Shown here in pieces: positions 3,223 through 35,902 of a stretch of DNA of 36,432 nt (position 1 is its first letter; each line of letters starts with the position of its first letter). The translations under genes were made by a program, and so were the position numbers. The notes under the pieces are model-generated. The model had not been told where the DNA came from. It worked only from the letters and a program-made list of their open reading frames with translations, and made no database searches. Where the stretch lies: IMG/VR virus record IMGVR_UViG_3300020421_000067, positions 1 to 36,432 of that record; one strand, given 5' to 3'. Source of the stretch: a virus.

Positions 3223-4053
3223 GTGCCAGCACCAAGACCAAGAGGAATATCGGATATAATGCCTAAGTTACAGAATGTAGCTCAGACATCACAGTTTTTA
3301 GTAAAATTTGTTTTACCAAGAGGAGATTGTCGAAGATTTTTAAGACAGAAAGGTATAAATGATCGTTTTATTTCAGATAATGTTGGTTTGCTTTGTAGTG
3401 ATGCAGTTTTACCAGGCAGTGCTATGGCAACTCTCAATACTGCAGGTGATTATCAAGGATTGATTGAAAGATTTGCACATACAAGAAATTTTACTCAGGT
3501 AAATTTTGATTTTTATGTAGATAATGAATATAAAACATTGAAATTTTTAGAACACTGGATGGAATTTATATCAGGTGGTTCTATTGCAGATGCTTCCTCA
3601 GATACCTACCACTTCAAAATGAAGTATCCTGATGAATATAAATCTAACGATACTAGAGTAGTAAAGTTTGAAAAAAACCACGAACAATTTTTAGAATATA
3701 GATTTATTGGAATGTTCCCACTATCACTTAATTCAACAAGAGTATCTTATCAAAATTCAACTGTATTGAAAGCAACTGCAACATTTAGTTTTGACAGATA
3801 TATATGTGGTGAATCAAATTCTTTAGCGAGAGCATTAGGATTAGACTTTAATAATCAATCTGCAAGAGATAGAAGAGCGTCAGCAAGACAGACTGAGAGA
3901 AATAATAATACTTTGTCTAGAATAATGAATGATGATTTAGCACTATTAAATTATGGAACAGCATATAGAAATCTTCCACCAGAATTAGTAGGTGGAGGAA
4001 TAACAAGGAGATTTGGTACAAATACCACTCTGACTCCATTTAGCGAAAGATAG
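3223..4053 (+). CDS. 54: gp54-like baseplate tail-tube initiator
   Basis: The 276-aa protein resembles the tube/tube-initiator family (gp19, gp54). It contains VGLLCSDAVLPGSAMATLN, a segment ERFAHTRNFTQVNFDFYVDN and LKFLEHWMEFI, a combination seen in tail-tube-type beta-barrels of T4-like cyanophages. In T4, gp54 binds gp48 on the baseplate and begins tube assembly. The chosen start is GTG at 3223, giving MPAPRPRGISDIMPK; the next ATG (13 codons on) would remove conserved-looking residues. gp19 itself is shorter, so gp54 is preferred, but a tube-protein paralogue is possible. A late motif lies 23 nt upstream. Confidence 0.7.
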   Translation: MPAPRPRGISDIMPKLQNVAQTSQFLVKFVLPRGDCRRFLRQKGINDRFISDNVGLLCSDAVLPGSAMATLNTAGDYQGLIERFAHTRNFTQVNFDFYVDNEYKTLKFLEHWMEFISGGSIADASSDTYHFKMKYPDEYKSNDTRVVKFEKNHEQFLEYRFIGMFPLSLNSTRVSYQNSTVLKATATFSFDRYICGESNSLARALGLDFNNQSARDRRASARQTERNNNTLSRIMNDDLALLNYGTAYRNLPPELVGGGITRRFGTNTTLTPFSER

Positions 4054-4100: not shown

Positions 4101-4820
4101 ATGCCTTTACCAACCATATCAACTCCTACGTATGAGTTGACTTTACCATCATCGAATAGGAAAATTAAATATCGTCCTTTTTTAGTTAAAGAGGAAAAGA
4201 TTTTAATTATTGCGATGGAAACCCAAGATGCAAAACAGATTGCAAGAGCAGTTAAAGATGTTTTGGCAAAATGTATACTAACGAAAGGAATCAAAGTTGA
4301 AAAACTTGCAACTTTCGATATTGAATATTTGTTTTTAAATATTCGAGGAAAATCTGTGGGAGAACATATCGAAGTCATGGTGACTTGTCCTGATGATGAA
4401 AAAACACAAGTTCCAGCATCAATTAATATTGATGATATCAAAGTAAAAAAAGATAAAGGTCACTCTACTGATATCATTCTAGATGATACCTATACTTTAA
4501 GAATGAAGTATCCATCATTGAGTGAATTTATTAAAAACAACTTTGATTCAATGACAGATTTAAAGGTTGAAGATACCTTTGAATTAATCTCATCTTGTAT
4601 AGACCAAGTATATTCTGAGGAAGAAACGTGGTCTCATCAAGAGTGTACTAAGAAAGAACTTTCAGATTTTGTGGAATCATTAAATTCAAATCAATTTAAG
4701 ATGGTTGAAAATTTCTTTACAACAATGCCAAAATTATCTCATGTTGTAAAAGTTACAAATCCAAATACAAAAGTTGATAGTGAAATAAAACTTGAGGGGC
4801 TGCAGAGTTTTTTCGGATAA
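4101..4820 (+). CDS. 26: Baseplate hub subunit gp26, probable tail-assembly chaperone
   Basis: The 239-aa protein matches T4 gp26 (the T4 baseplate family, about 208 aa in T4). Recognised features are the N-terminal MPLPTISTPTYELTLPSSNR, then KYRPFLVKEEKILIIAMET, and the middle LFLNIRGKSVGEHIEVMV. In T4 the protein is needed for the hub but its exact place is unclear. The sequence ends LQSFFG* over T-TTT-TTC, a slippery heptamer in the correct phase two codons before the stop, followed by a stem-loop (separate entry). A fraction of ribosomes could shift -1 and make a fusion of about 300 aa with the next frame. That arrangement is typical of tail-assembly chaperones of siphophages and P2-like phages. 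Confidence 0.85.
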   Translation: MPLPTISTPTYELTLPSSNRKIKYRPFLVKEEKILIIAMETQDAKQIARAVKDVLAKCILTKGIKVEKLATFDIEYLFLNIRGKSVGEHIEVMVTCPDDEKTQVPASINIDDIKVKKDKGHSTDIILDDTYTLRMKYPSLSEFIKNNFDSMTDLKVEDTFELISSCIDQVYSEEETWSHQECTKKELSDFVESLNSNQFKMVENFFTTMPKLSHVVKVTNPNTKVDSEIKLEGLQSFFG

Positions 4821-4848
4821 GTATGGCACACGAGGATCTTGTGTCATA
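4808..4848 (+). promoter_or_regulatory. Predicted programmed -1 ribosomal frameshift signal
   Basis: Three elements line up. The heptamer T-TTT-TTC (4808-4814) is in the X-XXY-YYZ phase of gene 26. A 7-nt spacer (4815-4821) contains the gene 26 stop codon TAA. A hairpin then follows with a perfect 9-bp stem (one G-U pair), TATGGCACA (4822-4830) with TGTGTCATA (4840-4848), and a 9-nt loop. After a -1 shift the frame runs F-R-I-S-M-A-H-E-D into the 59-aa frame that begins at 4823. No experiment is implied; the prediction rests on the geometry. Confidence 0.7.
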
Positions 4849-5002
4849 CTATAAGTTAAATTTTGCTTTGATGCAGCATCATAAATATAGTTTAACTGAA
4901 CTTGAGAATATGATTCCGTGGGAAAGAGAAATTTACGTTTCACTTTTACAACAATACATTGAAGAAGAAAATTTAAAAGCACAACAAGAACGTAATGGAT
5001 GA
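4823..5002 (+). CDS. Small gp51/GT-like tail-assembly partner, -1 frame extension of gp26
   Basis: A 59-aa frame, MAHEDLVSYYKLNFALMQHH followed by KYSLTELENMIPWEREIYVSLLQQY. It is predicted to be helical and acidic, with an E-x-M-x-P-W-E-R-E-I-Y core like the short T-part of tail-assembly chaperones and the gp51-type proteins listed next to gp26 in cyanophages. Its ATG is 2 nt after the gene 26 stop and lies inside the predicted frameshift hairpin. There is no convincing Shine-Dalgarno of its own, so it may be made only, or mainly, as a C-terminal extension of gp26. It overlaps the next gene by 8 nt. The exact match to T4 gp51 is an inference from position. Confidence 0.7.
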   Translation: MAHEDLVSYYKLNFALMQHHKYSLTELENMIPWEREIYVSLLQQYIEEENLKAQQERNG

Positions 5003-6587
5003 GGAACAAGGGTTACAATCCCCGATAGCAGGAGGAATTAGAGGTATTAGAAGAAGTGTATCTTCTGGTATCTTTACTGGTCGTGCTGTTCCACCACCAG
5101 TTCAACCAGATCCACAAACAACAAGTCTACTTAGTCAAAACTCATTATCTTTATCAAGTGTCTCAGGACAACTATCTGCAATATCCGATCAGATACTTTC
5201 ATTAAATAGTTCACTATCAGTGATAAAATCTAACTTAGACGTTAGTGATCAATTAGATAGACAAAGAGAGGCAGCAAAACAAAAAAGAGAAGCAATACTA
5301 GCAGAGCAAGGACTTAGAGAGGGAAAGGAATCAGAATTAGAGAGAAAAATACAAACTGCTTTACTTGCTCCAGTGAGGAGAGTAGCAGGTTTTGCTCAAG
5401 GTATATTAAGTAGATTAGGTAATTTTTTATTCATTCTCGCTGCTGGTTGGTTGACTGATAAAACTTTATCATTTTTAAGATTAACATCAGAAGGAAATGT
5501 TGATAAACTAAATGAATTTAAAAGAAAATTTTTATTTGACCTTGCAATTTTAGGTGGTGTTGGTTTAGCACTCACAGTTGGTATTGGAAAGTTAGTTGGA
5601 GTGGTGGGTGCTATTTCAGGATTAGCACTTAAATTTGCATTCTCTGCATTACTGGCAGCACCATTTGTTGGAGCATTAAAATTTATAAAAAATAATGTCG
5701 ATAATTTTCGTAAGAATTTCGGATTGTATATACGGAATCTTGTTACAAAAGGTCCAGGCAAAGTTGTAAAAAATTTAGGATTACCGTTGTTAGGATTAGG
5801 TGCTATTCCAGCATTGTTTCCTAAACAAATAAAAAATTTCTTCAAATCAGTATTCGGTAAGAAATTAGTCGCTGAAGCAGCGGAGGGAGTAGCAAAAACT
5901 GGTGCAAAAACGGGATTAAAAGGTAGTTTAAAAACTTTAGGACCTCTTGGAATAGGTCTTGAAGCAGCATTAACACCTCTCTTTGCATATTTTGATTTTA
6001 AAGATAGAAAAAAAGAGGGTCAGACAGATAAACAGGCAAAAGTTGGGGCAACTGCAACTGCGGCTGGTGGATTAGTTGGTACTCTGATTGGATTAACTCT
6101 TATACCAGAACCGTTAACAAGTGCTGCTGGTATCATCGGTCTTACTTTACTAAGTATGTTTGGTGGTGGCGGTGCTGGATTTTTAGCTGATAGATTTACT
6201 GGAGCTAATAAGAAGAAGAAGAAAGAAGAAGAAACATATACAGTTGAAGGAGTTGAAGGAAGGGCAGATGGTGGTCCTGTCGATGCTAAAAAACCATATG
6301 TCGTTGGAGAAAAAGGACCTGAATTATTCAGTTCGGATGTATCTGGAATGATTACACCTATTAACTTCAAAAAAGATTCAAAAGTGAGTGATTTGATAGC
6401 ATCCTTTGATCAATCTGCAGAGATAACTACAATACCATTAAGTCCTTCAGGAACATCATTACCAGCAAGTGCAACTATGGCAACGAGTTCAAAGACTCCT
6501 AGTGATTCAATACCTAATATTCCATCTTCAGATTTTGCAAATAATTTCATTGGATATTCTGAATCAGTGTATAATGTGGTGGTATAA
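4995..6587 (+). CDS. Tape-measure-like tail protein 1 (gp29-type position)
   Basis: A 530-aa protein. The N-terminus is disordered and Gly/Pro-rich, followed by a coiled-coil-like region (about residues 45-125, QLSAISDQILSLNSSL). Several hydrophobic helices follow (residues 130-230 and 330-395; RLGNFLFILAAGWLTD, FDLAILGGVGLALTVGIG). Near residue 430 is the segment ADGGPVDAKKPYVVGEKGPELF ending in a G-x-I-x-P element, a motif repeatedly found near the C-terminus of phage tape measure proteins. It stands directly after the predicted chaperone pair, the classical place for a tape measure gene. T4 gp29 is of similar size, but direct homology is not claimed. Confidence 0.65.
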   Translation: MDEEQGLQSPIAGGIRGIRRSVSSGIFTGRAVPPPVQPDPQTTSLLSQNSLSLSSVSGQLSAISDQILSLNSSLSVIKSNLDVSDQLDRQREAAKQKREAILAEQGLREGKESELERKIQTALLAPVRRVAGFAQGILSRLGNFLFILAAGWLTDKTLSFLRLTSEGNVDKLNEFKRKFLFDLAILGGVGLALTVGIGKLVGVVGAISGLALKFAFSALLAAPFVGALKFIKNNVDNFRKNFGLYIRNLVTKGPGKVVKNLGLPLLGLGAIPALFPKQIKNFFKSVFGKKLVAEAAEGVAKTGAKTGLKGSLKTLGPLGIGLEAALTPLFAYFDFKDRKKEGQTDKQAKVGATATAAGGLVGTLIGLTLIPEPLTSAAGIIGLTLLSMFGGGGAGFLADRFTGANKKKKKEEETYTVEGVEGRADGGPVDAKKPYVVGEKGPELFSSDVSGMITPINFKKDSKVSDLIASFDQSAEITTIPLSPSGTSLPASATMATSSKTPSDSIPNIPSSDFANNFIGYSESVYNVVV

Positions 6588-23250: not shown

Positions 23251-23826
23251 ATGGCAATTGAATCTGATTTGATACGAAGGTATAGGGGTGCTGTCTCACC
23301 TGAAGAATGTGATGAAATAATATCCCATATAGATTATCTTGAAAAAAATAACATAATGACTTATGATAAAAAATCTCTTCATAATCAAGATCATAAATCT
23401 ATTAACATCGCACATGATTGGAGTGTCGATTTACCTGCTTATAGTAGATTATCAGAACTTATAATTCCAAGATTACAACCTTGTGTCGATGAGTATCTAA
23501 CTGCTTTTAGTGTTCTAAAACAATGTAAATTTTTATTATATGACTTGAAGATTAAGAAAATACCTATAGGTGGAGGATTTCACTCTTGGCACTTCGAGAA
23601 TGGTGGAATACCTTATTCACAAAGAACTTTTGTATGTCAATTATATCTAAATGATAATTTTAATGGTGGGGAGACAGAGTTTTTATATCAAAATAGAAGA
23701 GAGGTGGCAGTCGCAGGTGATGTTATAATGTTTCCAGCTGGTTTTACTCATACACATCGTGGTAATCCACCAATAGGTAATCCAAAGTATATTGCCACAT
23801 CTTGGGGTATTTTACAAAATGAATAG
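23251..23826 (+). CDS. Prolyl-4-hydroxylase-like Fe(II)/2-oxoglutarate oxygenase
   Basis: A 191-aa protein of the P4H-type 2OG-Fe(II) family, common in marine cyanophages. The double-stranded beta-helix core shows GGFHSWHFENG (residues 108-118), LYLNDNFNGGETEFL (131-145), AGDVIMFPAGFTHTHRG (155-171) and K179 followed by YIATSW. The proximal iron ligands would be H114 and E116, an H-x-E variant of the usual H-x-D, with the distal ligand H167 or H169. Typical substrates are proline or other residues in proteins, but none is known here. It follows the glycine-rich adhesin by 21 nt and overlaps the next oxygenase gene by 8 nt, so it may act on a structural protein. Confidence 0.8.
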   Translation: MAIESDLIRRYRGAVSPEECDEIISHIDYLEKNNIMTYDKKSLHNQDHKSINIAHDWSVDLPAYSRLSELIIPRLQPCVDEYLTAFSVLKQCKFLLYDLKIKKIPIGGGFHSWHFENGGIPYSQRTFVCQLYLNDNFNGGETEFLYQNRREVAVAGDVIMFPAGFTHTHRGNPPIGNPKYIATSWGILQNE

Positions 23827-24526
23827 ACAAATATATAATATCTTTCCCACTACAATTTATGTGAGCGAGGTTGAAAATCATAATCAATACAAGGAGCAGT
23901 TTTATAAATTATATACTAAGTATGATTATGAACAAAAATCATTTCGAGATAATGAAGAATGGTTTAATACAACAAGTGAAAATGCAGGTAATCCCCTTAT
24001 TCATCTAGAAGAAAGTTTATCTGAGTTATTCAATGAGATAATACACAATGTCAAAATATATACTCTTGATGTACTAAAGTATCAGGACATATTTGATTAT
24101 GTGATTACAAAAACTTGGTTGTCTAGATCAAGGGCAACTTATGAAAACATCAAGTGGCACTCACATTCGACAAGTCATATTTCTTTTTCATATTATCTCA
24201 ACACTCCACAAAACTCACACGCAATTAAATTTGCAAACCCACATAACACAAATAGTTTATTTACTGGATTAAATAGCAGTGATGTTAAAGATGGTGTTGC
24301 AGAAAGAAATGAACTCAACGCATCAACATTTCATATTGAACCAAGAGAAGGTTCTTTAATTTTATTTCCAAGTTCGCTTGACCATTGCACTCAATGTCAA
24401 AATGAGAATTTTGATGGTGAAAGGTTGGCAATAGTTGGTGATGTAACTTTGGTTTATAAAGAAGATGGAACAAATGATTACTCAATGGGGTATATTAACC
24501 CAAAATATTGGAGGATTTACAATTGA
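23819..24526 (+). CDS. Putative 2OG-Fe(II) oxygenase
   Basis: A 235-aa protein (start at MNRQIYNIFPTTIYV, ATG at 23819; an upstream in-frame ATG at 23792 lies inside the previous gene). The opening and the core KWHSHSTSHISFSYYLNTP (H114, H116), then EPREGSLILFPSSLDHC (distal H189) and GERLAIVGDV (R202 for the 2-oxoglutarate carboxylate), fit the 2OG-FeII_Oxy_5 family. Its product and substrate are unknown. The H-x-H pair in place of H-x-D is typical of this subgroup. It overlaps its upstream neighbour, and its stop overlaps the next start (TTGA). Confidence 0.75.
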   Translation: MNRQIYNIFPTTIYVSEVENHNQYKEQFYKLYTKYDYEQKSFRDNEEWFNTTSENAGNPLIHLEESLSELFNEIIHNVKIYTLDVLKYQDIFDYVITKTWLSRSRATYENIKWHSHSTSHISFSYYLNTPQNSHAIKFANPHNTNSLFTGLNSSDVKDGVAERNELNASTFHIEPREGSLILFPSSLDHCTQCQNENFDGERLAIVGDVTLVYKEDGTNDYSMGYINPKYWRIYN

Positions 24527-24870: not shown

Positions 24871-25340
24871 ATTGTCAGCATTACTTTAAAAAATTAGATA
24901 AGTTTGCAGTTTGTGCATTTAAGGCAGATAAAGGATTCTTAGAAATAGAACCTTTCTCTGAGAGTTGTGGCATATATCATTATGTTTTTTATGGTTCAGC
25001 AAAGATAGGTAAACCTTTTCAATCTGAGTTTGAGATTGTCAATAAGGGTGATTTTTTTGATATGAAAAATTATCTACATCAACCCAGACTTTATGAAGCA
25101 CTTGAGGATTTTTATGTTTGGGGTTTTAATACATTTGGAGAGGAGGAATGGGATGCGAGATTATTGACTAATGAAACATTAAAAGTAGAAGGAGATTCAG
25201 TTTTGATATGTCTTGACGGAAAACCAGTAGTAAATGATAAAACTTTAAGGAGATTTGATTATAGTGAATTATCGACAGAAAAATCTTATGATGTAAAACT
25301 AGGTGACGGGGTGATTGCTTTATTCACCCGTAGTAAGTAA
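24867..25340 (+). CDS. Possible cupin-like protein of unknown function
   Basis: A 157-aa protein starting at ATG 24867 (MNCQHYFKKLDKF), overlapping the previous stop (ATGA). An earlier TTG at 24828 is not needed. The sequence alternates beta-strands and turns (FLEIEPFSESCGIYHYVFYG, GDSVLICLDGKPV, KLGDGVIALFTRSK), suggesting a small cupin-type barrel, but no metal-binding H-x-H is visible. The gene ends in a 17-nt tail-to-tail overlap with the halogenase. Function unknown; the cupin idea is a weak structural guess. Confidence 0.55.
   Translation: MNCQHYFKKLDKFAVCAFKADKGFLEIEPFSESCGIYHYVFYGSAKIGKPFQSEFEIVNKGDFFDMKNYLHQPRLYEALEDFYVWGFNTFGEEEWDARLLTNETLKVEGDSVLICLDGKPVVNDKTLRRFDYSELSTEKSYDVKLGDGVIALFTRSK
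25306..25331. terminator. Hairpin in the convergent overlap of two genes
   Basis: ACGGGGTGA (25306-25314) pairs with TCACCCGT (25324-25331), with one bulged G and a 9-nt loop. It lies where the cupin-like gene and the halogenase gene end on opposite strands. No T-run follows on either strand, so its role as a terminator is uncertain. Confidence 0.35.
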
Positions 25341-26496
25341 ATTCATTAAAATACACACCTAAAGTTGCCCATATTGCATTTGAAAATAAATTAGTTTTTT
25401 TATTTTTCTTTTTTCTATAATTTTCCCATAACGATTTCCTCACATCAAATTGATTGTAGTATTTCCAAAATTCAGTATCAGTTCGACTGCTAAGTTTGTA
25501 GTGGTGTAATATAAAATCTGAGTTACCTTTCCATATTCTCCGCATATTGCGATTATATACGTCTTGTGATTTGTTCTTCAATATGCAGTCAACGAGTGAA
25601 GTAATGCCATACACAGTCATATACAAAGCATTTGCTTCTAATGGGTCAATAAACCCACAAGCGTTACCAATTGCTACTACGTCATCACTCCAAGCATTTG
25701 TTAGAATATTTGGTTTCCATTTTAATAATCTTGGTTTACCGATTGGTTTTAGATGCGAATTATATTTTTTGAATTGTTCGAGTGCATCATCATCAGATAC
25801 ATATTGACTTGAGAAAACATATCCATTACCAATTTTGTTTGTTAAGTCAATTACAAACTGCCAACCATACTCTCTTGCAATTGATTTAGTATAGTTTTCT
25901 ATTTTATCAGTTTGTTCATATGGACATACCCAAGCACTATCAACTAAGTGGTCATCAAATATAGTTTCAGATTTATCTTTGACAAATTTGCGAGAGAACC
26001 CAGTACAATCAACATATAAATCATATCCTTTTGGTAATTCTGATAATGTTTCAATCTTATGAGTTATATTATCACAATGATTCTTCATTATTGAATTAGC
26101 TTTCTCTGCATCAAGGTGATAAGCGATTGAACCCCAATCACCCTTTGAATATAATTCATTTAACTGGTGTTTTGTTTTATTCTGTTGATACCACTTCTTA
26201 AATTTATTATTATCATCGTGCCAAAAAGTAAATGTAAATGGTTTTCCATCAACCTTATCCCAACCTATTTTTATATTTCCATACTTATAAACTGCACTAC
26301 ATTCTTCCATCCACTCTGATTCTTCAACACCTATAGCATCAAAGAAAGTTTTGATTTGTGGTAAGGATGATTCTCCTACACCTAAAATTGGTATATCATT
26401 ACTTTCTATAAGTGTGATTTCAGCATCTAGAAATTTATTCATATAGGCAGCACACCACCATCCTGATACTCCACCACCAATAATACAGATTTTCAT
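25324..26496 (-). CDS. Flavin-dependent tryptophan-halogenase-like enzyme
   Basis: A 390-aa protein of the tryptophan halogenase family. The start is ATG at 26496 (MKICIIGGGVSGWWCAAYM). A FAD-binding Rossmann G-x-G-x-x-G motif lies at residues 7-12, and GVGESSLPQIKTFFDAIGV at 39-57. AVYK at 68-71 lies where the catalytic lysine of PrnA (K79) falls. GWQFVIDLTNKIGNGYVFSS corresponds to the G-W-x-W-x-I-P / G-Y-V-Y-S signature, and GFIDPLEANALY holds the conserved Glu. The two Trp of G-W-x-W-x-I-P are changed to W and F. These enzymes use FADH2, O2 and halide to make hypohalous acid. Homologues exist in other cyanophages, including an iodinating one. The start overlaps the stop of an oxygenase gene. 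Confidence 0.85.
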   Translation of the reverse strand: MKICIIGGGVSGWWCAAYMNKFLDAEITLIESNDIPILGVGESSLPQIKTFFDAIGVEESEWMEECSAVYKYGNIKIGWDKVDGKPFTFTFWHDDNNKFKKWYQQNKTKHQLNELYSKGDWGSIAYHLDAEKANSIMKNHCDNITHKIETLSELPKGYDLYVDCTGFSRKFVKDKSETIFDDHLVDSAWVCPYEQTDKIENYTKSIAREYGWQFVIDLTNKIGNGYVFSSQYVSDDDALEQFKKYNSHLKPIGKPRLLKWKPNILTNAWSDDVVAIGNACGFIDPLEANALYMTVYGITSLVDCILKNKSQDVYNRNMRRIWKGNSDFILHHYKLSSRTDTEFWKYYNQFDVRKSLWENYRKKKNKKTNLFSNAIWATLGVYFNEFTYYG

Positions 26497-27062
26497 TCGT
26501 GATCTATGCAATTAGTAAGTAAGTTTGTTACAACTTTAAAGTTATGAGGGTTTATATAAATTCCGATTAGTATATGATAGATGTCATCAACCATCGCAAA
26601 TGAACCGTGTTGTTTCTTGGTATTTAATAAGTATGCTCTACCTGCCTTGAGTTCAACTATATTCTTATCGTATATAAATGCAAATTCGTGCAACTCTGTT
26701 TTGTTAAGTGGAATAAAAATTCTCATTTGTTGAGTTGTCTTATATGCGTCACGATGCAATCGAAAGAAACTACCACTATTCATATTGACTGCGTGACATT
26801 TAGCGAGACTGTTCCATAATTTAAAAAAATCTATGAGTGAAGGGCATTTCTTTAAATTATCGTTTATACTACAATCATTTCTTTTTGTGAGTTCTAAGTC
26901 ATCAACACTACCTGTAAGAGTCAATCCTTTCTTATTATTAGAACCATCCATCCATTTATCAATAGATTTTAGTTCATTAATAATTAAAGGAACATCAAAT
27001 TGATAATCTAGTTCAACTATATCTCCATAACTATTCAGTATCGTTAGATATGTATCGTTCAT
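26493..27062 (-). CDS. Putative 2OG-Fe(II) oxygenase, upstream of the halogenase
   Basis: A 189-aa protein with start ATG at 27062 (MNDTYLTILNSYGDI). A TTG at 27089 would add nine residues. The core shows GSFFRLHRDAYKTTQQMRI (H103-x-D105), then ELKAGRAYLLNTKKQHGSF (distal H152). A conserved basic position is not obvious. The spacing of motifs fits small aspartyl/asparaginyl-hydroxylase-like 2OG oxygenases. The stop overlaps the ATG of the halogenase (ATGA), so the two enzymes are co-produced. Its own start lies inside the end of the DUF6356-like gene (32-nt overlap). Confidence 0.65.
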   Translation of the reverse strand: MNDTYLTILNSYGDIVELDYQFDVPLIINELKSIDKWMDGSNNKKGLTLTGSVDDLELTKRNDCSINDNLKKCPSLIDFFKLWNSLAKCHAVNMNSGSFFRLHRDAYKTTQQMRIFIPLNKTELHEFAFIYDKNIVELKAGRAYLLNTKKQHGSFAMVDDIYHILIGIYINPHNFKVVTNLLTNCIDHE

Positions 27063-27318: not shown

Positions 27319-27346
27319 ATTATAACACAACTATCTAGTAATGCAA
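27319..27346 (-). promoter_or_regulatory. Sigma70-like promoter for the halogenase operon
   Basis: On the minus strand, TTGCAT (27341-27346), a 16-bp spacer, and TATAAT (27319-27324) preceded by TGT (extended -10). The expected start is at or just before the ATG at 27312, giving a very short leader or a leaderless message. The -35 overlaps the start codon of the divergent oxygenase gene. Confidence 0.45.
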
Positions 27347-27967
27347 AATATATCTGCCGATGCCCATCTAAAACCATTCCCACATATTATATTTCATAAT
27401 TTTTATGATGATAATGAACTAGAACTTATATGGGAAGAATTAACTTTTTATACTAGACCTAAAAAGTTATTTGATGTAGAAGAATATCAAGGTGTTGTGG
27501 GATATACGAAGGCAAAGGCATTACACCTAGATTCTGTATATACAGGTAAAAATAGAGTTTTATCAAGTATCCTAGAAGTATCTAGAAAAGTGTTTGACAG
27601 TCAAATTTTAGAACCATTTTCTAATATACACGATTGTTGCTCTGCTGCCACACAATCAAATTACGATGTAACTAAAGTAAGATATTACCATAATGGAGAT
27701 TACTATAAACCACATAAAGATATATATTTTGATTTTTTAGCATTTTCTTATTTTTTTAAAGAACCCAAAAAATTTGAAGGTGGTAATCTAATATTCCCAA
27801 AATATGATTATGAATTTAATTGCGAACATAATTCATTGATTATGATGCCATCTTGGGTTGAACATGGAGTAAGTGAGGTTTCAATAAACGATTCAGATTA
27901 TTATGATGGATATGGTAGATATGCCATAACTCATTTTTTTGGATGCAAGGAGAAAAATAATGACTAA
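27341..27967 (+). CDS. 2OG-Fe(II) oxygenase, P4H-like
   Basis: A 208-aa protein with a clear double-stranded beta-helix: YYHNGDYYKPHKDIYFDFLA (H125-x-D127), then EGGNLIFPKYDYEF, then NSLIMMPSWVEHGVSEV (H175) and Y-G-R193-Y-A-I for the co-substrate. H-x-D...H...R is intact, so activity is likely. It resembles the P4H-like enzymes of cyanophages; the substrate is unknown. It is transcribed divergently from the halogenase operon and overlaps the next oxygenase by 8 nt. Confidence 0.8.
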   Translation: MQNISADAHLKPFPHIIFHNFYDDNELELIWEELTFYTRPKKLFDVEEYQGVVGYTKAKALHLDSVYTGKNRVLSSILEVSRKVFDSQILEPFSNIHDCCSAATQSNYDVTKVRYYHNGDYYKPHKDIYFDFLAFSYFFKEPKKFEGGNLIFPKYDYEFNCEHNSLIMMPSWVEHGVSEVSINDSDYYDGYGRYAITHFFGCKEKNND

Positions 27968-29745: not shown

Positions 29746-30179
29746 GTAGAATAGTTTTAGTCACAGGTGGATTTGACCCAATACACACAGGTCATATATC
29801 ATACTTCAAAAATGCAAAAGAGTTATATCCACATACACCATTATGTGTGGGATTGAATTCAGATGAGTGGTTAATTCGTAAGAAAGGAAAGTATTTCTTA
29901 CCGATGACAGAAAGAAGAGCAATCGTTAAAGAAATGAAACCAGTTGACCTTACTATTACTTATGATGACTCTGATGATAGTAGTTGCAATGCGATACTAA
30001 AGTGTTTACAAATGTATGATAAAGTGGTATTCTGTAATGGAGGAGATAGAGTAAATACCAATGTTCCTGAGTTACAAAAATTCAATGACGATGAAAGAGT
30101 TGTCTTTGAGTGGGGTGTGGGTGGCGATAATAAAATGAATAGCAGTAGTTGGATTTTAAATGAGTTTTTAAAAAAATGA
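29742..30179 (+). CDS. Cytidylyltransferase-like nucleotidyltransferase
   Basis: A 145-aa protein of the small HxGH nucleotidyltransferase family (glycerol-3-phosphate cytidylyltransferase and RfaE-C types). It has GGFDPIHTGH (residues 9-18, with HTGH at 15-18), the central V-V-F-C-N-G-G-D-R, and a C-terminal NSSSWILNEFLKK where family members usually have I-S-T-T/S. The acceptor substrate cannot be stated. The protein might activate a small sugar or polyol phosphate for lipid or glycan precursors, or have a phage-specific role. It overlaps the helicase and the 34-aa gene (ATGA junctions). Confidence 0.75.
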   Translation: MSRIVLVTGGFDPIHTGHISYFKNAKELYPHTPLCVGLNSDEWLIRKKGKYFLPMTERRAIVKEMKPVDLTITYDDSDDSSCNAILKCLQMYDKVVFCNGGDRVNTNVPELQKFNDDERVVFEWGVGGDNKMNSSSWILNEFLKK

Positions 30180-30280
30180 ACACAGAAACATTACTCAGGA
30201 TATACAAAGCGGTAAGGGTAAAACCTAAACCCAAATACCCACCAGTTCGTAAAAATTACAACATACACACATACGGATGA
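30176..30280 (+). CDS. 34-aa basic microprotein, coupled to both neighbours
   Basis: A 34-aa frame (MNTETLLRIYKAVRVKPKPK then YPPVRKNYNIHTYG). Its ATG overlaps the upstream stop and its stop overlaps the ATG of the methyltransferase, both as ATGA. This double overlap, filling the whole gap of about 97 nt, argues for a real coding sequence. It is Lys/Arg/Pro-rich. No family is recognised. It could be a regulatory or DNA-binding peptide acting with the methyltransferase, or a coupling leader. Confidence 0.55.
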   Translation: MNTETLLRIYKAVRVKPKPKYPPVRKNYNIHTYG

Positions 30281-31239
30281 GAGACACAATTTTATTTGGA
30301 GATTGTCGAGAGACACTTAAAGAGTTTGATGAACAGGCAAGAATGTGTGTGACATCCCCACCATATTACGGACTCAGAGATTATGGAGGAGAGGAGAATC
30401 AAATAGGTCAGGAACAAACACCTGATGAATTTATTGAACAGTTAGTCAACGTATTTAAGGAGGTGCGAAATGTGCTTACAGATGATGGAACTTGTTGGGT
30501 TAATCTTGGGGATAGTTACTATAATTACAGACCTGGAAAAGGACAAGGACTACCAAGACAAACTGTTGCAAATACAAAACAAGACTTACCAGATGTGTGT
30601 CCTCGTAGAGGAAATAGAATCGAAGGACTCAAAGAAAAAGACCTTATTGGAATCCCATGGCTCTTTGCCTTTGCAATGAGAAATGATGGATGGTATCTGA
30701 GACAAGATATAATATGGCATAAACCTAATCCGATGCCTGAGAGTGTGAGAGATAGGTGTACGAAGTCACACGAATATATATTTTTGTTCAGTAAAAATAA
30801 AAAGTATTTTTATGACAACGAAGCAATCAAAGAACCCGCAAAAGATTGGGGAACAAGAGATAGAACCAACGGAAAATATCATAACGAAGGAACAGGACTA
30901 TCGCCACATACAGGACTTACAAAATCATATCCAACAAAGAATAAACGCTCTGTCTGGTCAGTAACTAACAAACCATATCGTGAAGCACATTTTGCCACAT
31001 ATCCACCTGACTTGATTGAACCTTGCATATTAGCAGGAAGTGAGAAGGGAGACATTGTACTTGACCCATTTATGGGTAGTGGTACTACAGCAGCAGTAGC
31101 TAAGGCACTTGGTAGAGATTACATAGGTTGCGAACTACACGAAGACTATGGTAATCTAATTCAGAAAAGAGTGCAAGAATATAAACCAGTTAAAGAAGTG
31201 GCACAAGAACCTTGCATCAATATCTTAGATATTATATAA
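30277..31239 (+). CDS. DNA methyltransferase, beta-class (N4-cytosine or N6-adenine)
   Basis: A 320-aa amino-methyltransferase. The catalytic motif TSPPY (residues 26-30) comes first, and the AdoMet-binding DPFMGSGTTAAVAKAL (263 onward) lies near the end, giving the beta-class order. An S-P-P-Y catalytic motif is typical of N4-cytosine enzymes, although N6-adenine enzymes also use it. Between them are DGTCWVNLGDS, GWYLRQDIIWHKPNPMPESV and CTKSHEYIFLFSKN, all family signatures. No restriction partner is seen. It probably modifies phage DNA to evade restriction. Target specificity cannot be read from sequence. Confidence 0.9.
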   Translation: MRDTILFGDCRETLKEFDEQARMCVTSPPYYGLRDYGGEENQIGQEQTPDEFIEQLVNVFKEVRNVLTDDGTCWVNLGDSYYNYRPGKGQGLPRQTVANTKQDLPDVCPRRGNRIEGLKEKDLIGIPWLFAFAMRNDGWYLRQDIIWHKPNPMPESVRDRCTKSHEYIFLFSKNKKYFYDNEAIKEPAKDWGTRDRTNGKYHNEGTGLSPHTGLTKSYPTKNKRSVWSVTNKPYREAHFATYPPDLIEPCILAGSEKGDIVLDPFMGSGTTAAVAKALGRDYIGCELHEDYGNLIQKRVQEYKPVKEVAQEPCINILDII

Positions 31240-31844: not shown

Positions 31845-32399
31845 ATGAGAATAGGTGTCATGTGTTCTGGTAATGGAACGAACTTTGAGAATATTGTTCG
31901 CTCCTGTAAAGAAGATGAAGTTGTATTGATGATATACAACAAAAAAAATTGTGGTGCTAAGAAGAGAGCAACTAAATTAGGTATCCCAAATGTCTGTATC
32001 AAGAGTGCAGATGAGGATGATATTATTAAATTGTTTAAAACCTATGAGGTTGACTTAATCGTATTAGCAGGGTGGATGAGAGTTATATCATCCAAATTTG
32101 TCAATTCCTTTCCACGCAGAATAATTAATTTACATCCATCATTACTTCCGAAGTATAAAGGATTACACGCTATTGAGCAAGCATTTTATAGTGAAGATGA
32201 TGTCACAGGATGTACGGTACACTTTGTAAATGAGGAACTGGATGGAGGAGAAATCATCCTACAGGAGGAAGTACCTATACTCAAAAATGATACTATCGAG
32301 TCACTCACAAAGGCAGTACAGAGAAGAGAATATTATGTGTTACCACAGGCAATACAGAAGTTTAAGGAGACAACTTTGTGTGTGTTAGATGACAAATAA
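31845..32399 (+). CDS. purN: Phosphoribosylglycinamide formyltransferase PurN
   Basis: A 184-aa GAR transformylase, slightly shorter than the E. coli enzyme (212 aa). It transfers a formyl group from 10-formyl-tetrahydrofolate in de novo purine synthesis. The phosphate-binding loop is CSGNGTNF (7-14). The active-site segment INLHPSLLPKYKGLH gives N95 and H97, and CTVHFVNEELDGGEII supplies D133. These align with the E. coli catalytic residues N106, H108 and D144, at the same spacing. Cyanophages carry several purine genes, which would raise nucleotide supply during replication. It follows the small genes without a gap. Confidence 0.93.
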   Translation: MRIGVMCSGNGTNFENIVRSCKEDEVVLMIYNKKNCGAKKRATKLGIPNVCIKSADEDDIIKLFKTYEVDLIVLAGWMRVISSKFVNSFPRRIINLHPSLLPKYKGLHAIEQAFYSEDDVTGCTVHFVNEELDGGEIILQEEVPILKNDTIESLTKAVQRREYYVLPQAIQKFKETTLCVLDDK

Positions 32400-35344: not shown

Positions 35345-35902
35345 ATGACATCAACAGCACTTAAAGCTTTAACAGCAACAACAGGAACTAGAACTGATTG
35401 TTGGAACACCCCACCTGAGTTTGTAGGGGATGTACTAGAATTTTTCGATAACAAACTAGATTTAGACCCCTGTTGTAATGACATCGAGAATCCCAACGTA
35501 CCCGCTAAAAAACTTTTCGATGAGAAAATGAATGGACTTGCACAAGATTGGGTTGCCGATAGTGTGTTTATGAATCATCCATACAGTAATAGTAAAGAGT
35601 GGATACCTTATGCAGTATCACAATACAAACTAGGACACGCAAAAGAGTTAGTCTTGCTGATAAAGATGGATGTATCTACAAGATGGTGGAAGTCAATATC
35701 TACCTATCCATTTCTAGCAATTAATAAAAGATTGAAATTTGGAAATGGCAAAGGTGCAGCACCTTTTCAATCCGCAATAGTTTATCTTGGCGATAGACTT
35801 GGTAAGTTTAGACGAGTATTCGGTAAATATGGAACCCTCTATATGCCAGTAATTGAAGTGTCACAAGAGAAGTTGAATCCTCTTGCAGATGTGTTATATT
35901 AA
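35345..35902 (+). CDS. Phage-type DNA N6-adenine methyltransferase (Dam family)
   Basis: A 185-aa protein of the phage DNA N6-adenine methyltransferase family. The family pattern D-x-W-x-T-P-x-x-F (DCWNTPPEFVGDVLEFF, residues 18-34), then LDLDPCCND, GLAQDWVADSVFMNHPYSNS, LVLLIKMDVSTRWW and NKRLKFGNG are all in place. The catalytic motif normally N-P-P-Y/F reads N-H-P-Y here. It would methylate adenines in phage DNA. The recognition site is unknown, though GATC is typical of Dam-type phage enzymes. It has its own promoter. Confidence 0.8.
   Translation: MTSTALKALTATTGTRTDCWNTPPEFVGDVLEFFDNKLDLDPCCNDIENPNVPAKKLFDEKMNGLAQDWVADSVFMNHPYSNSKEWIPYAVSQYKLGHAKELVLLIKMDVSTRWWKSISTYPFLAINKRLKFGNGKGAAPFQSAIVYLGDRLGKFRRVFGKYGTLYMPVIEVSQEKLNPLADVLY
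35873..35900 (+). promoter_or_regulatory. Sigma70-like promoter at the 3' end of the adenine methylase
   Basis: TTGAAT (35873-35878), a 16-bp spacer and TATATT (35895-35900) preceded by TGT (extended -10). It would start transcripts near 35907, giving the last gene a leader of about 120 nt. The sequence after the -10 (TGGGGAAACAAA) repeats the one after the promoter at 33142. Confidence 0.5.

Follow-up and report, generated by a model that had tools for sequence, protein, structure and literature searches.

The window analysed here, a 36,432-nucleotide stretch of DNA from a virus of marine bacteria (IMG/VR record IMGVR_UViG_3300020421_000067, positions 1 to 36,432), has P-SSM2 and other T4-like cyanophages as its nearest named relatives. 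Its tail genes lie in the order tail tube, 26, 51, tape-measure-like (Table 1), which is also the order of the lambda genes V-G-T-H; the tail tube identity is clear, whereas the tape-measure identity is drawn from weak PHROG matches (best E 8e-5). Elsewhere in the window, a tryptophan halogenase (25324-26511, minus strand; PF04820, E 4.7e-74) and several 2OG-Fe(II) oxygenases near it (23251-23826, 27341-27967) form a metabolic island in a tailed phage, and a purN-like formyl transferase and two DNA methyltransferases are found on the plus strand (31845-32399, 35345-35902, 30277-31239).

Table 1. Genes and predicted recoding elements at the gene 26 locus (positions in the window)
Feature	Position	Strand	Evidence
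Tail tube protein gene, upstream neighbour	3223..4053	+	PF23849 E 1.3e-14; phrog_45 tail tube E 2e-32
Gene 26, short form, TAC-N like, 239 aa	4101..4820	+	PF12322 E 1.6e-73; phrog_150 E 7.9e-79
Shine-Dalgarno-like element GAGGGG, 5′ of slip site	4794..4799	+	Glu codon bias; anti-SD pairing
Slippery heptamer T_TTT_TTC	4808..4814	+	T6N in 148/148 non-redundant frameshift-type relatives
Gene 26 stop TAA	4818..4820	+	TAA, TAG or TGA among relatives
Hairpin, 11 bp, with ATG 4823 inside	4820..4850	+	fold z -2.9; covariation
Post-shift -1 frame, 62 codons + stop; TAC-NC like part	4814..5002	+	open in all 148 loci
59-aa ORF, gp51 / TAC-C like domain	4823..5002	+	phrog_634 E 2.8e-28; phrog_150 C-terminal end E 2.4e-6
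Tape-measure-like gene (weak), downstream	4995..6587	+	phrog_8892 tail length tape measure E 8e-5

The 3′-end of gene 26 reads AGT TTT TTC GGA TAA, so that the heptamer T_TTT_TTC follows the X_XXY_YYZ pattern of -1 programmed ribosomal frameshift sites, in phase near the end of the gene. Its first T is the third position of a codon, the phase that a -1 site requires, and after it comes a single codon, GGA, before the stop. In accordance with the preliminary description, which had proposed this slip site and a fusion of about 300 aa, no stop interrupts the -1 frame before the end of the 59-aa ORF, and the ORFs give a predicted fusion of 238 gp26 residues plus 62 codons, 300 aa in all, with the predicted junction peptide Q-S-F-F-R-I-S-M-A-H. 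A single sequence proves little here, since the heptamer alone is frequent in the A+T-rich window (16 copies versus 18.9 expected), though an in-phase T6N within 30 nt of a stop occurs in gene 26 only, among the 36 genes of the window. A scan for other in-phase slippery heptamers near gene ends returned A7 at 30170 and 31645, where the -1 frames are short, and CCCAAAA at 24499, where the -1 frame overlaps the neighbouring ORF; all three were judged to be chance or ordinary overlap.

The predicted frameshift cassette was confirmed, on comparative grounds, by its conservation across relatives. These were picked by gp26 alone, the slip site being no selection criterion, and the 266 loci collected from the first relatives, further scans (two loci came from the KVP40 scan) and GenBank phages were reduced to 151 at 90% identity. 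In 148 of the 151 non-redundant gp26-encoding relatives, T6N is present in phase with a gp51 frame downstream; 139 of these have TTTTTTC at -10, and the remainder have T7 or shifted stops. Among the first 80 relatives, TTTTTTC lies exactly 10 nt 5′ of the stop in all 79 contigs that reach the junction (the contig of L071 ends short of it), and every contig with enough sequence left shows gp51 in the -1 frame. T6N is also present in every frameshift-type locus after thinning to 117, 55 and 26 sequences, the last being the 148 thinned at 60% identity. The heptamer is conserved beyond what the amino acids need: T6N is invariant in the 148, and elsewhere in gp26 phenylalanine is encoded by TTT 1132 times and by TTC 473 times. 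In none of the 148 is the -1 frame interrupted across the slip site; it ends 164-200 nt past the gene 26 stop, with 560, 147 and 1442 differences at codon positions 1, 2 and 3; by this comparison the frame is under protein selection.

A homopolymer run such as this one could also cause the polymerase, rather than the ribosome, to slip on the T6 run and produce edited mRNAs. This explanation is hardly credible, as the bacterial cases involve runs of ~9 A or T (PMC5009743), while most loci here have a run of exactly T6 and then a C, in a fixed phase and accompanied by stimulators of the ribosomal type.

Three of the 151 loci depart from this pattern. Vibrio phage D509 (L083, 3190-3260) has a gp26 gene and an open -1 frame with no slippery heptamer, its stop and start overlapping as TAATG, and the domain may come from reinitiation or from another slip site. 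In L185 a premature stop lies upstream and the T-run is intact. In L273 (1201-2094) a 2-nt deletion in the slip site changes T6C to T5 and so joins gp26 and gp51 in a single open frame; this may be a true fused form that lacks the short chaperone or a 2-nt assembly error, and owing to the latter possibility our first reading of L273 as a natural fused gene was withdrawn and the locus was used as a structural template only.

The main alternative to a ribosomal frameshift is that gp51 is a separate small protein made from ATG 4823 by termination-reinitiation and that the slip site is incidental. In the window 2 nt separate the ATG from the gene 26 stop, and this ATG could start gp51 alone in this genome, gp51 has its own gene in GenBank records, and TAATG or TGATG overlaps occur in KVP40, Cr30, Yut3 and D509. 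We nevertheless regard a separate gp51 as very improbable. Besides the invariance of the slip site, 43 of the 148 loci lack any ATG, GTG or TTG in the -1 frame over the stretch that starts at the slip site and ends at +24, and they still keep the conserved residues encoded there, such as FFRIAL.H..L..YY..NF. Since these loci are startless and yet conserved in protein sequence, frameshifting would be the sole plausible route to a whole gp51 domain there. Annotators have been forced to internal ATGs that remove conserved residues, as in the deposited gp51 of syn9, P-SSM7, S-RIM2, HTVC008M and C48C1. An independent start of the small frame is by codon content excluded in the startless relatives, and no other evidence for production of the domain by fusion is as strong as these startless frames.

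Two further observations concern the same region. Aeromonas phages 65 and CC2 (L093:2714-2881, L094:2702-2866) carry a conserved gp51-type frame 3′ of T_TTT_TTC that is not annotated as gp51. In four relatives of the window's clade (L062, L063, L073, L077), CCCTCTCCC takes the place of the ATG and of the 5′ arm of the stem, as in the startless clades; recombination at the junction may account for this.

Upstream of the slip site we found an element that the first reading of the sequence had not mentioned, a GAGGG 9 nt 5′ of the heptamer that resembles a Shine-Dalgarno (SD) sequence. The Glu codon 14 nt upstream is GAG in 109 of 130 loci (84%) versus 863 of 2936 (29%) elsewhere (P 4e-36), a bias that persists after thinning (P 1e-4 at 26 sequences), and pairing with the anti-SD has a median of -6.9 kcal/mol versus -2.3 in control stretches. 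Positions -14 to -10 thus hold a conserved SD-like element of the dnaX type, about 10 nt upstream and with a bias in codon choice, and stimulation is its predicted role. Because the element is also present in startless loci, it probably does not act as an initiation signal for gp51; in the window it lies ~24 nt from ATG 4823, too far to serve it, which again argues against a separately initiated gp51.

Downstream, the stem of the window pairs 4820-4830 with 4840-4850 over 11 bp, with one G-U and a spacer of 5 nt. The preliminary description had a stem of 9 bp with a 7-nt spacer; its core (4822-4830/4840-4848) is real, and it is the length and the spacer that had to be revised. The folding z is -2.9, with 1 of 200 shuffles equally stable. 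In the window's clade, 92.1% of stem cells are paired by formal count, versus 23-47% when the arms are slid, and at column pair 44/58, 83 of 88 loci are paired (T-A 44, G-C 20, A-T 18), whereas permutation gives a mean of 37.8 and a maximum of 55 in 20,000. As shuffle tests are inflated by relatedness, we rely on the slid control and on the three pair types. The 5′ base of this pair is a third codon position and mostly synonymous, while the 3′ base is a second position that alters Val, Glu or Ala; as the mostly silent base tracks the non-synonymous one, RNA pairing appears to dictate the silent 5′ base. The S-PM2 clade has a different stem, of other sequence, in the same place, and in these two clades the predicted role of the downstream structure is stimulation. 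A conserved hairpin was not found in the P-SSM7 and ALSH clades, where the slip site is kept, nor was a downstream stem common to all clades found when one was sought. The alignment that had been proposed as a check therefore bears out the heptamer in 148 of 151 loci and a covarying stem in the window's clade, while the hairpin, as folded from these alignments, is not universal and is missing in several startless clades.

The stem encloses ATG 4823, a further point against separate initiation there, and it raises the question of whether lineages that bear an ATG use both routes, making a free gp51 domain besides the fusion while the hairpin restrains initiation at the ATG. This reading is compatible with the frameshift explanation, with which its probability overlaps, and we consider it rather unlikely. 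The ATG is retained in 100 of 148 loci, and loci that bear an ATG have the stronger stems (median -13.5 versus -6.5 kcal/mol; P 3e-13, ATG versus all others), but this comparison is confounded by clade, and S-PM2-clade members with TTG for ATG still fold strongly (L111 z -4.2, L125 z -4.8).

What the frameshift would produce can be read from the homology of its two parts. The domain of the small frame had been suspected to be gp51-like, and its match to phrog_634, the baseplate hub assembly catalyst gp51, agrees with this; as it additionally matches phrog_150 at the C-terminal end, some gp26-family proteins in the databases would appear to have the gp51 domain fused, like T4 gp51. T4 gp51 (249 aa) is indeed a gp26-like part (PF12322 at 1-201, E 3.9e-52) followed by a C-terminal domain, whose 38-letter piece matches the gp51-frame profile (hhalign E 2e-7), and T4 gp26 is the short form alone. 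A common N-terminal domain is thus found by sequence in gp26 and the predicted fusion, and in T4 gp26 and the fused T4 gp51. Since T4 gp51 is the same two-domain protein as a single gene, which also speaks against a separate gp51, gp26 probably serves as the short tail-assembly chaperone and the fusion as the long one, as judged by homology, gene order and architecture. T4 gp51 is required for assembly and absent from the particle (PMC3004832).

Structure prediction was carried out with AlphaFold2 on the L273 fusion, and in the model the gp26 domain is predicted with confidence and the helical C-terminal domain with less (mean pLDDT 86.8; 55-71 in the blocks around the junction). In Foldseek, other T4-like hub proteins match strongly, and the HK97 chaperone 2OB9 has the highest probability among the matches listed (0.38) at an E of 1.4-2.0, below significance. 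The gp26 and gp51 profiles gave no match to sequences of solved structures, and a Pfam scan of the gp51 domain gave no credible family.

Several known systems resemble the predicted cassette. The lambda slip site, GGGAAAG, is unlike the T_TTT_TTC found here. The lambda G/GT pair nevertheless has the same arrangement: the -1 shift occurs late in the chaperone gene, which precedes the tape-measure gene, and the short form is in excess (PMC5009743). In P2, E/E+E′ likewise uses a -1 shift on a T-rich site directly before the tape-measure gene, but the C-terminal domains do not match, and P2 E′ was rejected as a sequence relative of the gp51 domain (hhalign P 0.28). T4 makes its short and long forms from two genes, 26 and 51, on opposite strands and with no shift, so that one lineage would use two genes where others use a shift. 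The spacing of the E. coli dnaX cassette is similar to that of the window. dnaX also has the SD-like element, slippery heptamer and hairpin in identical order, but it differs in its A_AAA_AAG site, its ~50% efficiency and a shift that yields the shorter product; its stem loop and 5′ SD stimulator are mentioned in PMC5009743.

The preliminary description had regarded a frameshift in gene 26 as new, which it is not. As conveyed by the papers that cite it (PMC10885494, PMC12846349), the study of Vladimirov, Gautam and Davidson (2022, Virology 566:9-15) reported T4-like TAC-N genes with poly-T -1 signals, while some T4-like phages instead carry a short gene and a fused long gene. To the extent conveyed there, the likeness to the present case covers the poly-T slip site in TAC-N and the short and long forms. 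A frameshift of gene 26 in T4-like phages was thus already proposed in 2022; our comparison confirms it, at the level of sequence, over 148 distinct relatives and maps extra control elements. The abstract of that study is said to name the chaperone genes as 26 and 51, in agreement with the citing papers. Neither the covarying stem nor the SD-like element of this site was described in the literature that we searched, but Vladimirov et al. 2022 may contain them.

Taken together, a -1 frameshift in gene 26 very probably yields a 300-aa fusion with the gp51 domain, gp26 being the short tail-assembly chaperone. In the proposed mechanism, gene 26 would encode the short chaperone, and a minority of ribosomes at TTT TTC would slip back one base, from T_TTT_TTC to TTT_TTT, bypass the stop one codon on and add 62 codons to make the fusion. 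The slip rate would probably be raised by pairing of the internal GAGGG with the ribosomal anti-SD and also by the hairpin that follows the slip site after 5 nt. Short forms in large number and a few long ones would then cover the tape-measure protein and bring in subunits of the tube, as in lambda G/GT. We infer the slippage itself, its rate, the roles of the stimulators and the chaperone function from evidence that is comparative throughout. More tentatively, and as a possibility that we would not favour outright, a three-part cassette of the dnaX type may drive the shift, with the SD-like element and T6N ancestral and near-universal and the hairpin gained, re-invented or lost by clade; where the ATG persists, the hairpin would mask it and the domain would be made only as a fusion.

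The frameshift would explain why gp51 often lacks a start codon in the many marine T4-like phages that have it annotated as a separate 'baseplate hub assembly catalyst': in these phages gp51 is most likely the frameshifted end of gene 26 and not a gene of its own, and the annotation of these abundant phages can be corrected. A 2016 review listed T4 as an exception to the tail-chaperone frameshift (PMC5009743), and the present case ties T4-like phages to a frameshift once believed absent from T4. In addition, the SD-like and covarying stem elements provide a natural comparative series in which the evolution of stimulators can be followed while the slip site stays fixed.
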